A stretch of 64,000 nt of DNA, from NCBI RefSeq assembly GCF_023074175.1, contig NZ_JADPKS010000074.1, positions 1 through 64,000 on the forward strand, given 5' to 3'. The notes under the pieces were generated by a model. The model was not told where the DNA came from, did no database searches, and saw nothing but the letters and a program-made list of their open reading frames with translations. Made by a program: the position numbers and the translations under genes. Shown in pieces: positions 52,841-63,873 of this stretch. The first letter of the stretch is position 1; every line of letters begins with the position of its first letter. The stretch is from Bradyrhizobium sp. 139 (GTDB taxonomy: Bacteria > Pseudomonadota > Alphaproteobacteria > Rhizobiales > Xanthobacteraceae).

Positions 52841-53992
52841 TCAGGTTGAAAGCGCGCCGCGTACGGCCGCGATGATTCGCTCCTGATCGGCTTCGGTCAG
52901 ATAGGGGTGCATCGGCAGGCTGATGACGTCCTGCGACAGGCTTTCGCAGCCCGGCAGGCCGCCGTCGGCGACCGGATACTGCTTGTAGGCGGTCTGCTGA
53001 TGCATCGACTTGCCGTAATAGATCGCGGTCGGCACGCCCTGCGCCTTCAGCGCGGCGGCGAAGCCATCGCGCTCGGTGCCCTTCGGGAGACGGATCGTGT
53101 ACTGCGCCCAGACCGAGCTATTGCCGGGGCCAAGACGCGGCACGGTGACGACATTGGACAGACCCCGCGCATAGCGCTCCGCGACTTTGTTGCGGGCGGC
53201 AATCTCGTCATCGAAAATTGTCAGCTTCTCGATCAGGATCGCGGCCTGCATGGTGTCGAGTCGGCCGGTCAGGCCGAGGCGGACGTTGTCGTATTTGTCA
53301 ACGCCCTGCCCGTGCACGCGGATGCTGCGCAGCGTCGCCGCAAGCTCGTCGTCATCGGTGAAAATCGCGCCGCCGTCACCGAAGCAGCCGAGCGGTTTTG
53401 CCGGGAAGAAGCTGGTCGCGGTGGCGAGTCCGATTGTGCCGAGCTTGCGGCCCTTGTAGCTCGCGCCAAAACCCTGGGCGGCGTCGTCGAGCACGAACAG
53501 GCCTTCGTCCCTGGCGATTTCGGCGATGGCGTCGTGATCGGCAGGCTGCCCGAACAGGTCGACCGGAATGACCGCGACAGGCTTGAGCCCGGCCTTGCGG
53601 GCCGTCGCGATGCCGCGCTTCAGCGATTCCGGGCTCATGTTGAAGGTGGCCTCATCCACGTCGACATAAACAGGCGTCGCACCGGTCCGCGCCACCGGCG
53701 AGGCAGTTGCGATGAAGGTGAAGGACGGACACAGCACGGCATCGCCGGGGCCGACATTCTTCGCCATCATGACCATCAGGATCGCATCGGTGCCGCTGGC
53801 GCAGCCGATCACGTGCTTGGCGCCGCAATAGGCCGCGAGCTGCGCCTCGAGCGCGGCGACTTCAGGGCCATTGACGAACTGGCAATGGTCGAGAACGCGC
53901 TTCACGGCGGCATCGAGCGAGACCCCGAGCCGGCGGCGCTGCGAGGCGACGTCGATGAAGGGAATGGGATCGGAACGCAGATGCTGGTTCAT
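52841..53992 (-). CDS. DegT/DnrJ/EryC1/StrS sugar aminotransferase
   Basis: A 383-residue PLP enzyme from the chosen start. 'GCASGTDAILM' and 'PSFTFIATASPVARTGATP' are the family's cofactor and substrate motifs, 'DDAAQGFGASYKGRKLG' precedes the PLP lysine in 'TSFFPAKPLGCFGDGG'. It aminates a keto-sugar nucleotide. The upstream Gfo/Idh/MocA gene suggests a 3-amino sugar (WlbA/WlbC type). I chose the ATG at 53992 because AAGG lies just upstream; the ATG ten codons earlier has no such site. Confidence 0.88.
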   Translation of the reverse strand: MNQHLRSDPIPFIDVASQRRRLGVSLDAAVKRVLDHCQFVNGPEVAALEAQLAAYCGAKHVIGCASGTDAILMVMMAKNVGPGDAVLCPSFTFIATASPVARTGATPVYVDVDEATFNMSPESLKRGIATARKAGLKPVAVIPVDLFGQPADHDAIAEIARDEGLFVLDDAAQGFGASYKGRKLGTIGLATATSFFPAKPLGCFGDGGAIFTDDDELAATLRSIRVHGQGVDKYDNVRLGLTGRLDTMQAAILIEKLTIFDDEIAARNKVAERYARGLSNVVTVPRLGPGNSSVWAQYTIRLPKGTERDGFAAALKAQGVPTAIYYGKSMHQQTAYKQYPVADGGLPGCESLSQDVISLPMHPYLTEADQERIIAAVRGALST

Positions 53993-54031
53993 GGCGCCTT
54001 GCACTTCTTGAGCGGTCGACATGGAAAGGGA

Positions 54032-55036
54032 TCAGCCGGCGACCCGGCGCGGGCCCTTGCGGGCGGCCGACGTGGCCGCAGGCCGCGATGGCGTTTCCAG
54101 GCACTGCGTGGCGATCTCGAGGCTGGCAACGCCTTCGTCGCCCGTGACCGCCGGCGTCTCGCCGTGGCGCACGGCCTTCAGGAAGGCGATCAGCTCGGCG
54201 CGAAGCGGCTCGTCGTGACCGACCGGCAAATGGCGCATTGAGTAGCTGCCGTCCGGCTTGAAGCCGAAGCACTCGGTGACCTGGCGGGTCAGCAGATCGC
54301 CCATCACGTATTTGCCGCGGGTCGCGACCGTGACGCTGCGCGCCTTGAACGGCGTCAGCCAGTTGGTGTTGATATGGGCAAGCACGCCGGAGGCGGTGCG
54401 AAACTGCAACAGCGCGATGTCCTCGCGCTCGGCCACCGCGCTCGACAATTGCGGCTGCACCTCGACGATGTCGGACTCGGTGAACCAGCGAATCAGGTCG
54501 ATGTCGTGCACGGCGAGATCGATGACGACGCCGACATTGGACATGCGCGGCGGGAAGGGGCCGACGCGCGTGATCGCGATGGAGAGAATATCCTCGCCCG
54601 CGATCGCCTGCTTGACCGCGGCGACCGCCGGATTGAAGCGCTCGACATGGCCGACCATCAGCGTCACGCCGGCCTTTTGCGCGGCGGCGACGATCTCGCG
54701 CCCTTCCGCGACCGTCGAGGCGATCGGCTTCTCGACCAGCACGTGGATGTTCTTGGCGATGCAGGCGAGCGCAACCTCGTGATGCAGATGGGTGGGCGCC
54801 GCGATGGTGACGGCGTCGACGCCCGCGGCGAAGAGCTGCTCGAGCGTCTCGAAGCTTGCGCAATTGGCAAGTTCCATCGCCCGCGTGCGATGTGCCGGCG
54901 AAGGATCGACCACGCCGACGAGGCTGATGCCGGGAAGACCCGCGAGCACGCGCGCATGGTTGCTGCCCATCACGCCGGCGCCAATGACGCCGACGCGCAA
55001 GCCGGCCTTTGCCGGTGCAGATCCTTTGGAAGTCAT
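54032..55036 (-). CDS. Gfo/Idh/MocA oxidoreductase, nucleotide-sugar type
   Basis: A 334-residue NAD-dependent oxidoreductase. 'VGVIGAGVMGSNHARVLAG' is the Rossmann motif, 'VLVEKPIAST' holds the conserved EKP lysine and 'VIDLAVHDIDLIRWF' the catalytic D-x-x-x-HD-x-D region. With the DegT aminotransferase just downstream it probably oxidises a sugar nucleotide at C3, as WlbA does on UDP-GlcNAcA. The UDP-sugar 6-dehydrogenase and acetyltransferase needed for that route are not in the window. Confidence 0.88.
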   Translation of the reverse strand: MTSKGSAPAKAGLRVGVIGAGVMGSNHARVLAGLPGISLVGVVDPSPAHRTRAMELANCASFETLEQLFAAGVDAVTIAAPTHLHHEVALACIAKNIHVLVEKPIASTVAEGREIVAAAQKAGVTLMVGHVERFNPAVAAVKQAIAGEDILSIAITRVGPFPPRMSNVGVVIDLAVHDIDLIRWFTESDIVEVQPQLSSAVAEREDIALLQFRTASGVLAHINTNWLTPFKARSVTVATRGKYVMGDLLTRQVTECFGFKPDGSYSMRHLPVGHDEPLRAELIAFLKAVRHGETPAVTGDEGVASLEIATQCLETPSRPAATSAARKGPRRVAG

Positions 55037-57628: not shown

Positions 57629-57829
57629 GCTGTTCCCACGAGATCCCTAGCTTACGGCGCCTCTTTAGCCGCGGTATCGAGGGGGTCGCAATAGCCCGAG
57701 CGCCCTCTTCACGACAGCTTTCACGACAGCTATTGCAAGATCGGCGCCAAAACCATACCAAAGCGGCCGAATTCGGCGCCTCGCGTCGGGTTGCCTCAAA
57801 TCTTCGCAAACCCTGTTCATGCGGGCGAG

Positions 57830-58789
57830 ATGCGCCGAATCCTGCTTTCGACGGCCAAAATCCTGATTTCCGGAGCGCTGCTCTACCTGGCGCTGCGCAA
57901 GGTCGATCTGACCGAGCTGTTATCGCGCTTCACCGCGACCAGCCTGTTCTGGATCGGCGTGGCGATCGCGGTCACGTTCCTGCAAATCTTCGTCGGCGTG
58001 CTGCGCTGGCGCGAGATCAGCGCCGAATGCGGCGCGCCGCTCGAGCTTGCCCGCGCCATGCGCTACAACGTGATCGGCGCCTTCTTCAATCAGACGCTGC
58101 CGTCGTCGATCGGCGGCGATGCGGTCCGGCTGTGGCTGGTGGCGCGCGCCGGCGCCGGATGGCGTGCGGCCACCTACTCGATCTTCGTCGATCGCGCGAT
58201 CGGCCTCGTCGCGCTCGCGATTCTCATCGTCGCGAGCCTGCCCTGGAGCTACGAGCTCATCACCGATCCGCACGGACGCTCGGCGCTGCTGCTCGTCGAC
58301 CTCGCGGCGCTCGCAGGCGGGCTCGGTTTCCTGATTTTCGGCGCGCTGAAATGGTCGTGGCTGAAGACCTGGTGGGCCACCCATCACATCCACGCTTGCG
58401 CCGTGATTGCGAACCGCGTGATCTTCAACGCCAGGCGCGGACCTGTTATCGCGGTCCTGTCGCTCCTCGTGCACGTGCTTGCCGTCGTCATCGCCTGGTG
58501 CGTGGTGCAGGCGATCGCAGCGCCAGTCAGCTTCGGCCAGATCTTCCTGCTCATTCCGCCGGTGATGCTGATCACACTGATGCCGATCTCGATCGCCGGC
58601 TGGGGCGTGCGCGAGGCGACCATGGGCCTCGCCTTCGGCTTCGCCGGGCTGGCTCCCAATGAGGGCGTCAACATCTCGCTGCTGTTCGGCGCAGTCTCGT
58701 TCATCGTCGGCGCGGTCGGCGGCCTGGTCTGGATTCTCAGCGCGGAGAAAGCTGCGCAAGGCTCGGCGCCGCTCGGGGTGCCGGAGTGA
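57830..58789 (+). CDS. UPF0104 / lysylphosphatidylglycerol-synthase-type transmembrane protein
   Basis: A 319-residue polytopic protein. 'VGVLRWREISAECG', 'AFFNQTLPSSIGGDAVRLWL' (core LPSSIGGDAVRLW) and 'PISIAGWGVREATMGLAF' are the conserved family segments. It lacks any catalytic aminoacyl-transferase domain. Its stop overlaps the GTG start of the phosphoglycosyl transferase by four bases (GTGA), tying it to polysaccharide synthesis; a lipid-linked glycan flippase-type role is conceivable but unproven. The ATG at 57830 is supported only weakly by GCGGGCGAG. Confidence 0.86.
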   Translation: MRRILLSTAKILISGALLYLALRKVDLTELLSRFTATSLFWIGVAIAVTFLQIFVGVLRWREISAECGAPLELARAMRYNVIGAFFNQTLPSSIGGDAVRLWLVARAGAGWRAATYSIFVDRAIGLVALAILIVASLPWSYELITDPHGRSALLLVDLAALAGGLGFLIFGALKWSWLKTWWATHHIHACAVIANRVIFNARRGPVIAVLSLLVHVLAVVIAWCVVQAIAAPVSFGQIFLLIPPVMLITLMPISIAGWGVREATMGLAFGFAGLAPNEGVNISLLFGAVSFIVGAVGGLVWILSAEKAAQGSAPLGVPE

Positions 58790-59805
58790 ACCCGGTCACC
58801 GATGCTCTCGCAGCCGCGCCGTCGCTGCTTGCCGTCGCGATCGCCGCGCTAGTTTCGGCGCTCGTCACCTGGATCAGCCGTCCCCTGCTCCAGCGCTACG
58901 CGCTGGCGCGGCCGAATGCGCGTTCCTCGCATCGCATCCCGACCCCGCAGGGCGGAGGCATCGCGGTGATCACCGCGACGCTGCTGGTTGCTTCGATCTG
59001 GGCGGCGTGGGCAAACGTCGCGATCCCTTCCGCGCTGTTGGGCGCGACGGTGCTGATCGCGCTGGTCGGATTTGCCGACGACATCATGTCGCTGCCGGTG
59101 CTGGTGCGGCTCGTGCTGCAGGCCGCCGCCGTCGGTGCGGTCGTGTTCACCACGCCCGAAACCGCGCGCATCGTGCCGGCGCTGCCGCTGGCGCTGGAGC
59201 GCGGCCTCATCCTGCTCGCCGGCGTCTGGTTCGTGAACCTCGTCAACTTCATGGACGGGCTCGACCTGATGACGGTGGCGGAAGTGGTGCCGGTCACCGC
59301 AGCGCTCCTGCTGCTCGGATGGCTCGGCGAGCTGTCCTGGCCACCCGTACTCATCGCCGCAGCGCTGTGCGGCGCCATGCTCGGCTTTGTGCCGTTCAAC
59401 CGTCCGGTCGCAAAGGTTTTCCTGGGCGATGTCGGCAGCCTGCCGATCGGCCTCCTGCTCGGATGGTGCCTGCTCGAACTCGCCTGGCACGGGCAACCGG
59501 CCGCGGCGCTGTTGCTGGCGGCCTATTACCTCGCAGATTCCACCGTCACACTGTTTCGACGCGTCGCGCGGCGCGAACAATTCTGGTCGGCGCACCGCAC
59601 GCATTTCTACCAGCGCGCCACCGACAACGGTTTCGAGGTCCCGCGGGTGATCGGCGAGGTCTTCGCGCTCAATCTCGTGCTCGCGGGGCTCGCTATCCTG
59701 ACCATCCGCGCCGGTTCGACACCGATCACGGCGCTCGCGCTGCTCGCCGGCGCAATCGCGATCGCGTTCGTGCTGCGGCGGTTCTCCCGCCCTCAGGAAT
59801 CCTGA
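58786..59805 (+). CDS. Polyprenyl-phosphate HexNAc-1-phosphate transferase (WecA/WbpL type)
   Basis: A 339-residue, about 11-helix PNPT-superfamily enzyme. 'RSSHRIPTPQGGG' is the first loop, 'GFADDIMSLPV' holds the DD pair, 'NLVNFMDGLDLMTVAE' and 'FLGDVGSLPIGLLLGW' are the catalytic MraY/WecA motifs. It transfers a HexNAc-1-P (often QuiNAc or FucNAc in WbpL/WreU relatives) from UDP-sugar to undecaprenyl phosphate, starting O-antigen synthesis. Starts with GTG. Its end overlaps the convergent reductase by 13 bases. Confidence 0.9.
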   Translation: MNPVTDALAAAPSLLAVAIAALVSALVTWISRPLLQRYALARPNARSSHRIPTPQGGGIAVITATLLVASIWAAWANVAIPSALLGATVLIALVGFADDIMSLPVLVRLVLQAAAVGAVVFTTPETARIVPALPLALERGLILLAGVWFVNLVNFMDGLDLMTVAEVVPVTAALLLLGWLGELSWPPVLIAAALCGAMLGFVPFNRPVAKVFLGDVGSLPIGLLLGWCLLELAWHGQPAAALLLAAYYLADSTVTLFRRVARREQFWSAHRTHFYQRATDNGFEVPRVIGEVFALNLVLAGLAILTIRAGSTPITALALLAGAIAIAFVLRRFSRPQES

Positions 59806-60740
59806 GCCGACAGCGCGAGCCGCAAGCCCTCGTCGAGGGAAACCTGCGGCTGCCAGCCGGTCGCGATCGCCCTGGCGAGGTTGAGCTCGAGCGAGCCGAT
59901 CAGGCTGTCATGCGTATCCTGCTGGCCGATCACGCCGAGAAGCGTGCTGAGCAGCTCCGGCGGCACGCGGAACAGCCGCGGGCTCTTGCCGGCCGCCATG
60001 GCCAGGCGCTCGATGAATTCGGGCGTCGAGACTTGTTCCCTGTCGGCCACCAGAAAGATTTCGAAATTGCTCGCGGGATCGGGATGGGCAAGCCGGTGCA
60101 GGATGAACGATGAGAGATTCTGCACCGCGAGGAAAGCGCGATGATTCCGGATCGCGGCAAAGGGCAACGGCAGTCCCAGATTCACCGCACGCGTCAGCAG
60201 CGCAAAATTGCCCTTGGCGCCCGCACCATAGACCAGCGGCGGCCTGATCACCGAGATCGTTATGGCGCTGTCGCGCGCCAGCGTTCTCAGCCCTGCTTCG
60301 GCGGCCGCCTTGGACATGCCATAGAGGCCGCGCGGCGTGAGGATGTCGTCCTCGCTGAACGGCGCCCGGCCCTCATTGCTGCGGCCGTGCACGAGGACCG
60401 TGCTGACGAAGATGAACTGGCGCACGCCGGCCGTCGCCGCGCTGCGCGCCAGGTGCAGCGTGCCGGCGATGTTGACGTTGCGGTAGAGCTGGACCGCATG
60501 CTCCTCGTGCTTGTGATGCACGCGGGCGGCGAGATGAACCACGGCGTCGACGCCTTCGAGCGCGGCCTGCCAGTCGGTTTCGGGACCGATCGTTTCAATG
60601 ACGACCTCGTCGTCGATGCCTTCCGGACCGCGCACCGCGCGGCGGACCGACCATCCCTGGCGCGCCAGCGCGGGCACGACATGACGTCCGACGAAGCCGC
60701 TCGCTCCCGTCACCAGCACGACCGGTTTACCCTCGCTCAT
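59793..60740 (-). CDS. NAD-dependent epimerase/reductase (WbpV/WreQ-like)
   Basis: A 315-residue extended SDR with 'VTGASGFVGRHVVPALA' (cofactor), 'FVSTVLVHGRSNEG' and 'YGMSKAAAEAGL' (YxxxK). It resembles WbpV and WreQ, which reduce the 4-keto-6-deoxy-HexNAc made by WbpM/WreV-type dehydratases to UDP-QuiNAc or FucNAc. That dehydratase type is encoded two genes upstream, which supports the role (inference). Its start overlaps the upstream glycosyltransferase stop by four bases. Confidence 0.83.
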   Translation of the reverse strand: MSEGKPVVLVTGASGFVGRHVVPALARQGWSVRRAVRGPEGIDDEVVIETIGPETDWQAALEGVDAVVHLAARVHHKHEEHAVQLYRNVNIAGTLHLARSAATAGVRQFIFVSTVLVHGRSNEGRAPFSEDDILTPRGLYGMSKAAAEAGLRTLARDSAITISVIRPPLVYGAGAKGNFALLTRAVNLGLPLPFAAIRNHRAFLAVQNLSSFILHRLAHPDPASNFEIFLVADREQVSTPEFIERLAMAAGKSPRLFRVPPELLSTLLGVIGQQDTHDSLIGSLELNLARAIATGWQPQVSLDEGLRLALSAQDS

Positions 60741-61957
60741 CGCTGTTCCGCCAATTTGGGGTTGCGCAACAATTCGTCGACCAGGGCGGCATAGGCGTTC
60801 ATCGCGGCCGTCCGGTCGAATCTCGCTGCCGCCTTCACCGCGCGGTCGGCCATGGCGGCGGCGTCGGAACGGGATGCCGTACGGATTGCCTCAGCCAATT
60901 GATCGGCACGGCCCGGCGTCACGACCCAGCCGAGCCCGTTTTCCACCACTGTCAGCGCAGCTTCGGCTTCCGGCTCGGAGACCAGCACGACGGGACGCCC
61001 GACCGCCAGCAGATTGTAGAACCGGCTCGGCACCGACACCCCGGCAACATTCTTCCGGTACGGGATGATCCAGAGGTCGGCAGAGGTCAGGAACGCCTCG
61101 AGCTCCGCATCCTCGACGCGCGCCACGAAGCCGATATTGGGCAGGTTCGAGGCCGCCTGCAACTGCTTCAACCGCTCGAAGCCGATGCCCCAGCCGGAGA
61201 GCAGGAACTGAATCTCCGGCTCGTCCTTCAGCAGGCGCGCGGCCTCGAACACGATCTCCGGATCATGGGTGAAGCCGAGATTGCCAGAGAGGCCGACGAC
61301 GAAGCGGGCCGACAGCGCCTTGCGAAACGGATTGTCCGGTGTCACCGGCCGTGGCGCGGGCACGAGCGTCGTCCAGTTCGGGATGAAGCGGATCTTGTTC
61401 CGCGTCATGCCCCGATAGCTCAGCAGCCGCCGTTCCGCATCGCGGCCGATCGTGATGACGGCATTGAGCGCCCGGAACATCAAGGCATTTGCGGCGCGCA
61501 TCATCCTGGCCACGAGCGAACCGGGCTTCAGGAGGCCCGCCATCACCAGCACGTCGGGGAAGAGATCGTGCAGGATCAGAGCGGACCGCGCACGCCTGAG
61601 CTTCGCCGCCGCCGCAACCGCGTAGGGCAGCATGAACGGCGCGGTCACGGTCAGCACCACATCGCCCTGCCGCAGCTCCCGGATCAGCGCGACGAAGGTG
61701 CGCACCACGAACAGGATCTCGGCGGCGGCGCGCCGCACCAGCGCGGCCTTCCCCGTCATCCGGTTCTTGATGGCAACGACGCGCGGCTTGCCCGGTCCGG
61801 TTTGCAAGGCAGGCAGCACGCCGGTCGATCCCGACAACACGACCACCTCGTGATCCGCGGCGAGGCGGCAGGCAATTTCCGCCATGATCCCCGCTGTTGT
61901 GCTTGGATCCGGCGGATAATGCTGGCTCGCGACGACGATCTTGCCGGAAGGCTCCAT
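60737..61957 (-). CDS. Glycosyltransferase family 4 (WbuB-like)
   Basis: A 406-residue GT-B transferase. N-terminal 'ASQHYPPDPSTTAGIMAEIA' (core SQHYPPDPSTTAGIMAE) and 'LILHDLFPDVLVMAGLL' are characteristic of WbuB-type enzymes; 'VVGLSGNLGFTHDPEIVFEA' and 'GVSVPSRFYNLLAVGRPVV' form the nucleotide-sugar site. It likely adds a sugar to the undecaprenyl-linked O-antigen acceptor. It starts two bases after the dehydratase stop and is translationally linked to the reductase gene. Confidence 0.88.
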   Translation of the reverse strand: MEPSGKIVVASQHYPPDPSTTAGIMAEIACRLAADHEVVVLSGSTGVLPALQTGPGKPRVVAIKNRMTGKAALVRRAAAEILFVVRTFVALIRELRQGDVVLTVTAPFMLPYAVAAAAKLRRARSALILHDLFPDVLVMAGLLKPGSLVARMMRAANALMFRALNAVITIGRDAERRLLSYRGMTRNKIRFIPNWTTLVPAPRPVTPDNPFRKALSARFVVGLSGNLGFTHDPEIVFEAARLLKDEPEIQFLLSGWGIGFERLKQLQAASNLPNIGFVARVEDAELEAFLTSADLWIIPYRKNVAGVSVPSRFYNLLAVGRPVVLVSEPEAEAALTVVENGLGWVVTPGRADQLAEAIRTASRSDAAAMADRAVKAAARFDRTAAMNAYAALVDELLRNPKLAEQR

Positions 61958-61959
61958 GA

Positions 61960-63873
61960 TCAGGCCGCGGTCGATCCGAATTCCGGAACCGCGTCCTTCA
62001 GGATGGTCCTGATCGTGGCCCGATCGTCCCGCGCGATCGCCTGCTCCAGCGCTGCGATCCATTTGCGCAGCGTCTGCATCGGCGGCTCGTTCGGCTGTGC
62101 CGCCATGATGCCGGCGACACCGATCTCGCGGGTGGGCTCCTCGGAGGCGAACAGGATTTCGTGCAGGCGCTCGCCCGGCCGCATGCCCGTGAACACGATC
62201 TCGATGTCGTAGCCGGGCTGGAGACCGGAGAGGCGGATCATGCGCTCGGCAAGATCGACGATCTTCACCGGCTGGCCCATGTTAAGCACGTAGACCGAGA
62301 CATCGGGACGCGCGGTTCCGAGCGCATGCGTTGTCGCCGTGATGACGAGATCGCAGGCCTCACGGATGGTCATGAAGTAGCGGACCATGTCGGGATGGGT
62401 CACCGTCACGGGACCGCCGGCCTCGATCTGGGCCTTGAACTTCGGCACCACCGAGCCGTTCGACGCCAGCACGTTGCCGAACCGAACCGAGATCAACCGC
62501 ATCGGCGGCCTGGCACCGCCGCTACCTGCGGCAAGATCGTGGTCGAGCGCCTGGCAGTACATCTCGGCGAAGCGCTTGGTGAGGCCAAGCATCGACACCG
62601 GCTCGATCGCCTTGTCGGTCGAGATCATCACCATGGCTTCGGCGCCGGCGCTGTGCGCCGCATCGGCAACGTTGATCGAGCCGAAGATGTTGGTCTTGAC
62701 GCCCTCGCTCCAGTCGCGTTCCAGGATCGGCACGTGCTTGAGCGCAGCGGCATGGAACACGATGTCCGGGTTGAACTCCGCCATCAGGCGCATGATGCGC
62801 TCGCGGTCGCGGATGTCGGCGATCCGCCCTTCGATCTCGGCAGCCGTGCCATGCGCAGCGAGCGCTTCCGTGACCGCGTAGAGCGCCGGCTCGGAATGTT
62901 CCACGATCAGGAGGCGCGCGGCCCCGAAGGCGACGACGCGCTCGCAGATCTCGGAGCCGATCGAACCGCCGCCGCCGGTGACGATCACCGCCTTGCCCCT
63001 GATCAGGGCTTCGAGGCGCGCATAGTCGATTATCTCGCTCGGCCGCAGCAGAAGGTCCTCGACCGCGACGGCCGCGAGGCGCGGCGTATCGCCGCTCTCC
63101 AGCGAAGGCATCCGATTGACGATCACCCCGAGCTTGCGCGCCCGCATCAGGATCGATTCCGGATGCGCGTCCGGCTCGAACGCCGACGGCGTCATGATGA
63201 GGCGCGCGATCGGCTTGTTGCGCTTGGCGAAATCGGCGATGACGTCCTCGATGTCGTCAATGCCGCCCAGCACCGGCACGTTGCGGATGAACTGGCCGCG
63301 ATCGGATCTCGACGGCGACAGCACGCCGACCGGCCAGATGCGTTTGATCGCCCCGCTCTCGATGCCGCGCAACAGCACCTCGGCATCTGCGGCGCGGCCG
63401 ATCAGCAGTGTCGGCGCGGCGTCCTCGGTTCGGGCGTGACGCCGCACCCGCGTATAGCGGAAGTAGCGATAGGCCATGCGCGACGCGCTGAGGAAGGAGA
63501 TCTCAAGGAACCAGTAGAGAACGATCGTCACCTTGCCGAGGAAGAAGGCGCCGCGGACATTGGGGGCGACGAAGATGTAGTCGAGCGCCAGCAGGGCAAC
63601 CGTCAGCACGGTCGCGACGCGGATGATGTTCAGCGCGTCGGGCAGCGAGATGAAGCGCCATTTCGTCGTGGTCAGGTTGAAGAGGAAGAACACGACGACG
63701 CTGAAGGCGAGGAAGTAGGGCAGGATCTGGAACAGCAGCGGCAGCCGGTCGAAGAAGCCGTCGCCACCTTCGAAACGCAGGTAGAAAGCGGCGAACAGCG
63801 CCGCCGTGGTCGCCAAGAGGTCATGGAGCGCGATCAGGAAATTGCGCAAGGTGAGATGCGAAAGACGCGTCAT
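61960..63873 (-). CDS. Nucleotide-sugar 4,6-dehydratase, WbpM/CapD family
   Basis: A 637-residue protein. Four N-terminal transmembrane helices (about 12-125) precede a first Rossmann-like domain (about 150-270) and the SDR catalytic domain (about 285-580) with 'VTGGGGSIGSEICERV' and 'MISTDKAIEPVSMLGLTKR'. WbpM relatives make UDP-4-keto-6-deoxy-GlcNAc. At the position of the usual Tyr/Met before G-x-T-K this protein has Leu ('SMLGLTK'). 'RYFMTIREACDLV' and 'TGMRPGERLHEILF' complete the family signature. First gene of a leftward three-gene operon. Confidence 0.92.
   Translation of the reverse strand: MTRLSHLTLRNFLIALHDLLATTAALFAAFYLRFEGGDGFFDRLPLLFQILPYFLAFSVVVFFLFNLTTTKWRFISLPDALNIIRVATVLTVALLALDYIFVAPNVRGAFFLGKVTIVLYWFLEISFLSASRMAYRYFRYTRVRRHARTEDAAPTLLIGRAADAEVLLRGIESGAIKRIWPVGVLSPSRSDRGQFIRNVPVLGGIDDIEDVIADFAKRNKPIARLIMTPSAFEPDAHPESILMRARKLGVIVNRMPSLESGDTPRLAAVAVEDLLLRPSEIIDYARLEALIRGKAVIVTGGGGSIGSEICERVVAFGAARLLIVEHSEPALYAVTEALAAHGTAAEIEGRIADIRDRERIMRLMAEFNPDIVFHAAALKHVPILERDWSEGVKTNIFGSINVADAAHSAGAEAMVMISTDKAIEPVSMLGLTKRFAEMYCQALDHDLAAGSGGARPPMRLISVRFGNVLASNGSVVPKFKAQIEAGGPVTVTHPDMVRYFMTIREACDLVITATTHALGTARPDVSVYVLNMGQPVKIVDLAERMIRLSGLQPGYDIEIVFTGMRPGERLHEILFASEEPTREIGVAGIMAAQPNEPPMQTLRKWIAALEQAIARDDRATIRTILKDAVPEFGSTAA

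Follow-up and report, generated by a model that had tools for sequence, protein, structure and literature searches.

The question raised by this locus is which enzymes begin O-antigen assembly in Bradyrhizobium. The window, the stretch of 64,000 bases analysed here, belongs to one contig of the Bradyrhizobium sp. 139 genome (7.9 Mb in 176 contigs). It contains a module of five genes encoding a membrane-bound dehydratase (DEH), a glycosyltransferase (GT4), a 4-reductase (RED) of the short-chain dehydrogenase/reductase (SDR) superfamily, a polytopic phosphoglycosyl transferase (PGT) and a PF03706 membrane protein (FlipTM). In the accessible part of PMC4581169, the O-antigen of the lipopolysaccharide (LPS) is described as required for proper nodulation of soybean by B. 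japonicum, and in that of PMC4743980 photosynthetic strains are described as nodulating Aeschynomene without an O-antigen requirement. Our literature searches returned no paper naming the enzymes of the first O-antigen assembly step in Bradyrhizobium. We propose, as a likely explanation, that the module is the initiation module of the Bradyrhizobium LPS O-antigen, making and loading its first 6-deoxy-N-acetylhexosamine. As far as its sequences indicate, it is of a kind already known, that of WbpM, WbpV and WbpL in Pseudomonas. The locus would thus supply candidates for the first O-antigen step across the genus.

The proposed route follows from the families to which the proteins belong. DEH would convert UDP-N-acetylglucosamine (UDP-GlcNAc) to UDP-4-keto-6-deoxy-GlcNAc at the membrane, and PGT, to judge by its family and motifs, would transfer the sugar-1-phosphate from UDP to undecaprenyl phosphate. 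With NAD(P)H, RED would reduce the 4-keto sugar to N-acetyl-D-quinovosamine (D-QuiNAc) or N-acetyl-D-fucosamine (D-FucNAc); it may act on the UDP-sugar or, as we slightly favour, on the sugar once it is lipid-linked. GT4 would probably add the second sugar, FlipTM is a candidate flippase of the lipid-linked sugar, and the neighbouring ligase WaaL would join the finished chain to the core.

An earlier reading of this DNA, made without database searches (the sequence-only reading), had placed a WbpM-type dehydratase, a WbpV/WreQ-like reductase and a transferase close together; the open reading frame list and the Pfam scan bear out all their positions and strands, and add GT4 and FlipTM, which it had omitted. 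DEH belongs to PF02719 (353 bits in the Pfam scan), with a full-length domain at residues 296-593 preceded by four hydrophobic segments at the N-terminus, as seen in the hydropathy profile, which supports its naming as WbpM-type. It scored 356 bits in a genome-wide PF02719 search, in which the runner-up reached 49 bits. Its nearest solved sequence is PglF/WlaL (5bju, E 4e-67), and it is 34% identical to the P. aeruginosa WbpM type (two WbpM proteins compared) and 33% to WreV of Rhizobium etli. It carries the TDK motif, with Leu where WbpM, WreV and PglF have Met, at the position of the SDR Tyr. This active-site stretch (62572-62622, minus strand) is identical, Leu included, in 107 of 107 full-length Bradyrhizobium proteins, which come from 125 scanned loci with some genomes counted twice; Leu is also found at this position in several other relatives outside the PglF, WreV and Pseudomonas enzymes.

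The transferase belongs to the WbpL class. PGT has 10 hydrophobic segments and carries the motifs that we take to mark the WbpL family (DD, NxxNFMDG, GDxGS and HxxHxYQ), in the forms DD, NxxNFMDGxD, GDxGS and HRxHFYQR. Among 109 PGT proteins of the genus, DD is kept in 109, NxxNFMDGxD in 108, GDxGS in 109 and HRxH(F/Y)YQR in 107. MraY structures match PGT at E 4e-13; its identity to WbpL is 35% (two P. aeruginosa clusters), and to R. etli MraY 23%. The Bradyrhizobium sp. 139 genome holds only two PF00953 proteins, PGT and a presumed MraY, and its five PF02397 proteins are all long (at least 477 aa).

The label 'WbpL/WreU-like' given to PGT in the sequence-only reading stands for WbpL and falls for WreU, and it appears from the sequences to merge two superfamilies. 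A genome in our collection (G226) could be recognised as that of R. etli CFN42, its contig C4 matching p42b:967-3018 at 100% identity and in the same coordinates. On p42b, the gene of a membrane dehydratase (wreV, 683 aa) comes after that of a PF02397 sugar transferase (188 aa) and is oriented towards a ligase gene. This PF02397 protein is the putative WreU. The only PF00953 protein of R. etli CFN42 in a profile search is MraY, recognised by eye through its location and sequence, and R. etli WreU, whatever its identity, is therefore not WbpL-like. The possibility that PGT is WreU was rejected, PGT being a PF00953 protein of 339 aa and the transferase beside wreV a PF02397 protein of 188 aa. 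In the part of PMC9860679 that was available, the WecA-type and PglC-type transferases are treated as separate families.

In RED, the catalytic residues Ser113, Tyr140 and Lys144 are unchanged in 10 of 10 aligned family members. The best-matching reductase of R. etli (~45-47% identity) is presumably WreQ, an assignment that we base on the match itself and on its position in the chromosome, roughly where accession YP_470339 is expected. A better match to unrelated SDRs, which the sequence-only reading had named as a possibility to check, was not found, RED being 45% identical to WreQ and at most 28% to GalE, HldD and the local epimerase. In a tree of 40 rows (four of an earlier set dropped, one for its long branch and three with close kin kept, and three added), RED falls in a branch of 26 rows (support 100/100) that also contains the WbpV-type enzymes, the WbjF-type enzymes and the presumed WreQ. 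The naming of RED as WbpV/WreQ-like is thus upheld. For GT4, the open frame reaches 62062, with a likely start at 61957. GT4 matches the WcaI-family model NF007640 below its cut-off and has no solved relative at E 0.01. It gave no match at 1e-3 in three R. etli stretches (L191, L192 and L174), and is therefore not assigned to WreG.

The association of these genes is conserved. A scan of named genomes with RED gave 79 loci (from the best 80 of 95), of which 77 are titled Bradyrhizobium, one 'Bradyrhizobiaceae bacterium' and one 'Frankia sp. RB7', the latter probably mislabelled. Being selected by RED, these loci say nothing about how often RED is absent; several of them end at contig breaks, and the gene counts are those of tblastn, since simple picking of open reading frames loses overlapping genes. 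PGT is present in 78 of the 79, always downstream of RED on the other strand, and the cluster can therefore not be attributed to chance. The tail-to-tail arrangement reported for the transferase and the reductase in the sequence-only reading is thus convergent in 78 of 78 loci, with the exact 13-bp overlap in 52 of the 78. DEH and FlipTM are each found in 78 of the 79 loci and GT4 in 70. The first four bases of PGT are the last four of FlipTM (GTGA, 58786-58789), an overlap shared by 42 of 76 loci. In a second survey, of 100 relative genomes, 59 of them congeners, PGT was matched (E 1e-10) in 52 of the 59 and DEH (E 1e-60) in 54. RED, DEH and PGT are all missing from genomes G034, G044 and G050, two of which fall short of 90% completeness.

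With the enzyme families in place, it can be asked which sugar the module would make. QuiNAc is a plausible starter. It is quite possible, if not what we expect, that the same module has D-FucNAc (axial C4) as its product, in which case FucNAc and not QuiNAc would start the chain and reduction may precede transfer. We take D-FucNAc to be the product of WbpK and WbjF in P. aeruginosa O5 and O11. Two ends of P. aeruginosa O-antigen clusters were found in plasmid records. One, in which an asnB-like gene precedes reductase-wbpL-wbpM, we presume from its gene order to be of O6 type. The other is of O11 type, with a wbjB-wbjC-wbjD-wbjE-wbjF-like gene order that is partly backed by the accessible text of PMC5774825. 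The O11-type reductase is 40% and the O6-type reductase 37% identical to RED, and the two are sisters in the 40-row tree (95/91). The products that we assume for them differ at C4, so that, if these are right, both stereochemistries would occur within the family. An attempt to read the C4 stereochemistry from the tree failed on this point, and the choice between QuiNAc and D-FucNAc is thus not readable from sequence. The 26-row branch joins RED to the presumed WreQ, a QuiNAc enzyme, but it holds both Pseudomonas enzymes too and does not decide the matter. An older composition study reportedly found both quinovosamine and fucosamine in B. japonicum LPS. WbpL is reported, in the portion of PMC3726653 available, to start chains with D-FucNAc or D-QuiNAc.

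The reductase is the part of the module that varies most tellingly within the genus, and its reshuffling together with the class of transferase is, we infer, the more interesting part of the finding. The best relative of RED has at least 55% identity in 37 of the 59 congeners; in 16 the best full-length relative reaches only 34-44% (G002, among these, also has a broken closer copy), and in six there is none at E 1e-20. Draft and complete genomes together suggest that the reductase decays or moves. RED is missing from the module in four genomes (G027, G037, G049 and G051), each of which has a relative of 55-68% identity elsewhere. In 12 genomes the only full-length reductase is deeply different (33-36% to RED), and those placed in the tree form a branch of their own with reductases of other families. 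This deep reductase lies ~27-64 kb from the module in seven of the 12 (G002, G007, G014, G018, G030, G038 and G047), on the same contig but megabases away in G053, and on a separate contig in the remaining four. Its neighbours at the two places scanned are sugar genes, encoding NeuB, a cytidylyltransferase, DegT, Gfo/Idh and a hexapeptide transferase.

Decay was found in four Bradyrhizobium genomes whose RED appears broken and in which the PGT and DEH matches remain (L050, which is G002, and L166, L167 and L170). The RED of G002, a single-contig genome, is shorter by ~119 residues, among them the catalytic Tyr and Lys, and what is left contains stops. A search with the deeper reductase type recovered a second, intact reductase in three of the four (G002, G356 and G357) and in none of 14 chosen control genomes with an intact module. 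A relative at another place thus often accompanies a broken or missing RED, which speaks for the proposed module. Replacement extends to the transferase in four of the 59 congeners (G006, G007, G019 and G052), which keep DEH and FlipTM at the module, have no PGT and no GT4 there, and carry a PF02397-type transferase directly beside a reductase (loci L081, L082, L083 and L194). These transferases are 52-80% identical to that of G019, the family scan having covered G006 and G019; in three genomes the transferase-reductase pair adjoins the region's gnnA-like gene, and in G007 it lies ~50 kb away. A Fisher test on the reductase classes gave p = 7e-10; it is partly circular, the classes being set by best match, and ignores shared ancestry, and replacement is therefore argued here from the separate cases.

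Several observations weigh against the proposed initiation module and should be considered together. The product of DEH is not certain, given an identity of only 33-34% to WbpM and WreV and the Leu in place of Met. The stops and frame changes in the reductases of L166, L167 and L170 are in draft assemblies and could be sequencing errors. No substitute reductase was obtained with the deeper-type query in G355, whose RED is broken. Conversely, in the wider survey, two of the 37 genomes with a close reductase (G035 and G045, which were not among the 14 controls) carry a second one of 49-53% identity. Three of the 59 congeners, G012 (L073), G024 (L072) and G056 (L070), have DEH and PGT and no reductase relative by two queries. 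Reductase complementarity is thus not strict, as these six genomes demonstrate. Finally, our literature searches returned nothing that connects Bradyrhizobium LPS with QuiNAc or fucosamine, or with the genes of the module. As a separate observation, the second reductase of G035 (L051) and G045 (L214) is located near a second dehydratase match, outside the module.

The order of reduction and transfer may bear on how such variation could be tolerated. R. etli wreQ mutants carry a 4-keto sugar in their LPS, according to the part of PMC4514872 at hand, which implies that transfer does not require prior reduction in that species. Outside the genus, 13 reductase loci were compared, eight from relatives, one from R. 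etli and four from picked plasmid hits. A PF00953 transferase is found beside the reductase in 10 of them; in G077 a PF02397 transferase lies ~1.5 kb away, and G087 and R. etli have neither. In two further relatives, for which coordinates alone were considered, PGT is next to the reductase in G067 and was not found in G082. That the reductase goes with a transferase, whichever its class, is consistent with a transfer-linked task and is no proof of the order of the steps. It can tentatively be hypothesised, as a reading that we think has a minor chance of being right in full, that in Bradyrhizobium RED acts after the WbpL-type PGT has loaded the 4-keto sugar on the lipid. A reductase whose step is late and separable could be broken, moved to a distant island of sugar genes, paired with the other transferase superfamily, replaced or dropped, and the post-transfer route reported for R. 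etli would then not be tied to PF02397 transferases. Replacement by the deep reductase would perhaps switch QuiNAc to FucNAc, and a dropped reductase would leave a 4-keto first O-antigen residue in a few lineages. The genomes with broken or missing reductases, together with the four lineages with PF02397 transferases, offer a handle on whether reduction precedes or follows transfer to the lipid, and the latter on whether a swap of transferase changes the starter sugar.

The polymer served by the module is suggested by its surroundings (Table 1). On the minus strand the order of transcription is DEH, GT4, RED, and FlipTM and PGT converge on them from the plus strand.

Table 1. Coordinates in the window of the genes of the putative O-antigen initiation module
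Feature	Position	Strand	Description
DEH	61960-63873	-	WbpM-type membrane-bound UDP-GlcNAc 4,6-dehydratase (predicted), 637 aa
GT4	60737-61957	-	GT-B glycosyltransferase, PF00534/PF13439; between DEH and RED
RED	59793-60740	-	WbpV/WreQ-family SDR 4-reductase (predicted), 315 aa, PF01370 111 bits
PGT	58786-59805	+	Polytopic WbpL-family phosphoglycosyl transferase, 339 aa, PF00953 107 bits
FlipTM	57791-58789	+	PF03706 (LPG_synthase_TM) membrane protein, PF03706 157 bits
RED/PGT tail-to-tail overlap	59793-59805	both strands	13 bp

Past the end of the window, in locus L009, the minus strand continues with an O-antigen ligase gene (PF04932), hldE and hldD, followed by heptosyltransferase II (rfaF, plus strand), an RND pump, a group-1 glycosyltransferase, galE and an msbA-like ABC gene. 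The products of hldE (through its two domain models), hldD, the heptosyltransferase II gene and galE exceed their NCBIfam cut-offs, and that of the msbA-like gene falls below the MsbA cut-off. The O-antigen context proposed in the sequence-only reading is thus reinforced by the ligase, hldE, hldD and heptosyltransferase II genes that adjoin the module. Dehydratases and transferases of these families also serve other surface glycans, and the module could in principle start an exopolysaccharide, a capsule or a protein glycan; the four congeners with a reductase and a dehydratase and no WbpL-type PGT would suit such a role. We consider this improbable, given that the ligase gene and hldE lie together beside the module in 72 of the 79 named loci and that the five long PF02397 transferases of the genome are of the usual exopolysaccharide kind. 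Still less probable is that RED is an epimerase of lipid-linked N-acetylhexosamine, with DEH serving another pathway: the SDR families are close, and Gnu is described in the part of PMC3682973 available as acting on undecaprenyl-pyrophosphate-linked GlcNAc, but RED matches the presumed WreQ at 45% over 311 residues as against 28% over 210 residues for the genome's own GalE (no Gnu sequence being part of the comparison), and the P. aeruginosa and E. coli clusters, like the module, have their dehydratase gene at a short distance from the reductase gene.

On its other flank the module is followed by a UDP-GlcA-epimerase-like gene, manC, a Gfo/Idh and DegT pair, and murJ. The pair, a DegT aminotransferase and a Gfo/Idh oxidoreductase (52841-55036, minus strand), is gnnB/gnnA-like, its match to the UDP-GlcNAc 3-dehydrogenase model (271 bits) being below the cut-off of 450; it suggests a lipid A with 2,3-diaminoglucose. 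The gnnA-like gene was found in 64 of the 79 named loci. Within the LPS core region, an RND efflux pump gene and an adaptor gene (L009:9084-13549) separate the heptosyltransferase from the next glycosyltransferase. The Wzt_C domain (PF14524) of ABC-type O-antigen export had no match in the genome.

At the level of known systems, the initiation module proposed here can be compared with four others. The surroundings resemble the rfaD, rfaF, lpcC, galE and waaL region of B. japonicum, in which a waaL mutant is without O-antigen (accessible part of PMC4581169), and the rfaL region of Bradyrhizobium ORS285 (that of PMC4743980); the mutants described in these parts of the two papers concern ligase, heptose and core genes. 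DEH shares the TDK motif with Campylobacter PglF (WlaL), whereas PglF has Met where the Bradyrhizobium enzymes have Leu. PglF supplies the synthesis of bacillosamine. R. etli CFN42 has in common with the module a membrane dehydratase (33%), a 4-reductase (~45-47%) and a ligase gene beside wreV; its parts are scattered, however, with wreV and the PF02397 transferase on p42b and the reductase on the chromosome, whereas the Bradyrhizobium module is compact and has a PF00953 transferase. The R. etli reductase (L191:6296-7243) is an isolated gene, surrounded by murein and cell-division genes of the other strand (as judged by eye), with no transferase beside it. In a 2017 study by Li and Noel, R. 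etli WreU is said to prefer the UDP-4-keto sugar and WreQ to be far faster on the lipid-linked product; if so, the statement of the sequence-only reading that the Wre proteins make UDP-QuiNAc and load it is probably out of date. The closest likeness is to wbpV-wbpL-wbpM and wbjF-wbpL-wbpM of P. aeruginosa, which represent the same three families as RED, PGT and DEH; genes for a reductase, a WbpL-like and a WbpM-like protein stand in a row in the two P. aeruginosa clusters and on one E. coli plasmid. The P. aeruginosa proteins are 34-40% identical to those of the module, and their dehydratase has Met where DEH has Leu. The P. aeruginosa trio is co-directional at the end of the O-antigen cluster, whereas in Bradyrhizobium PGT converges with RED, overlaps a PF03706 gene and lies beside ligase and heptose genes.

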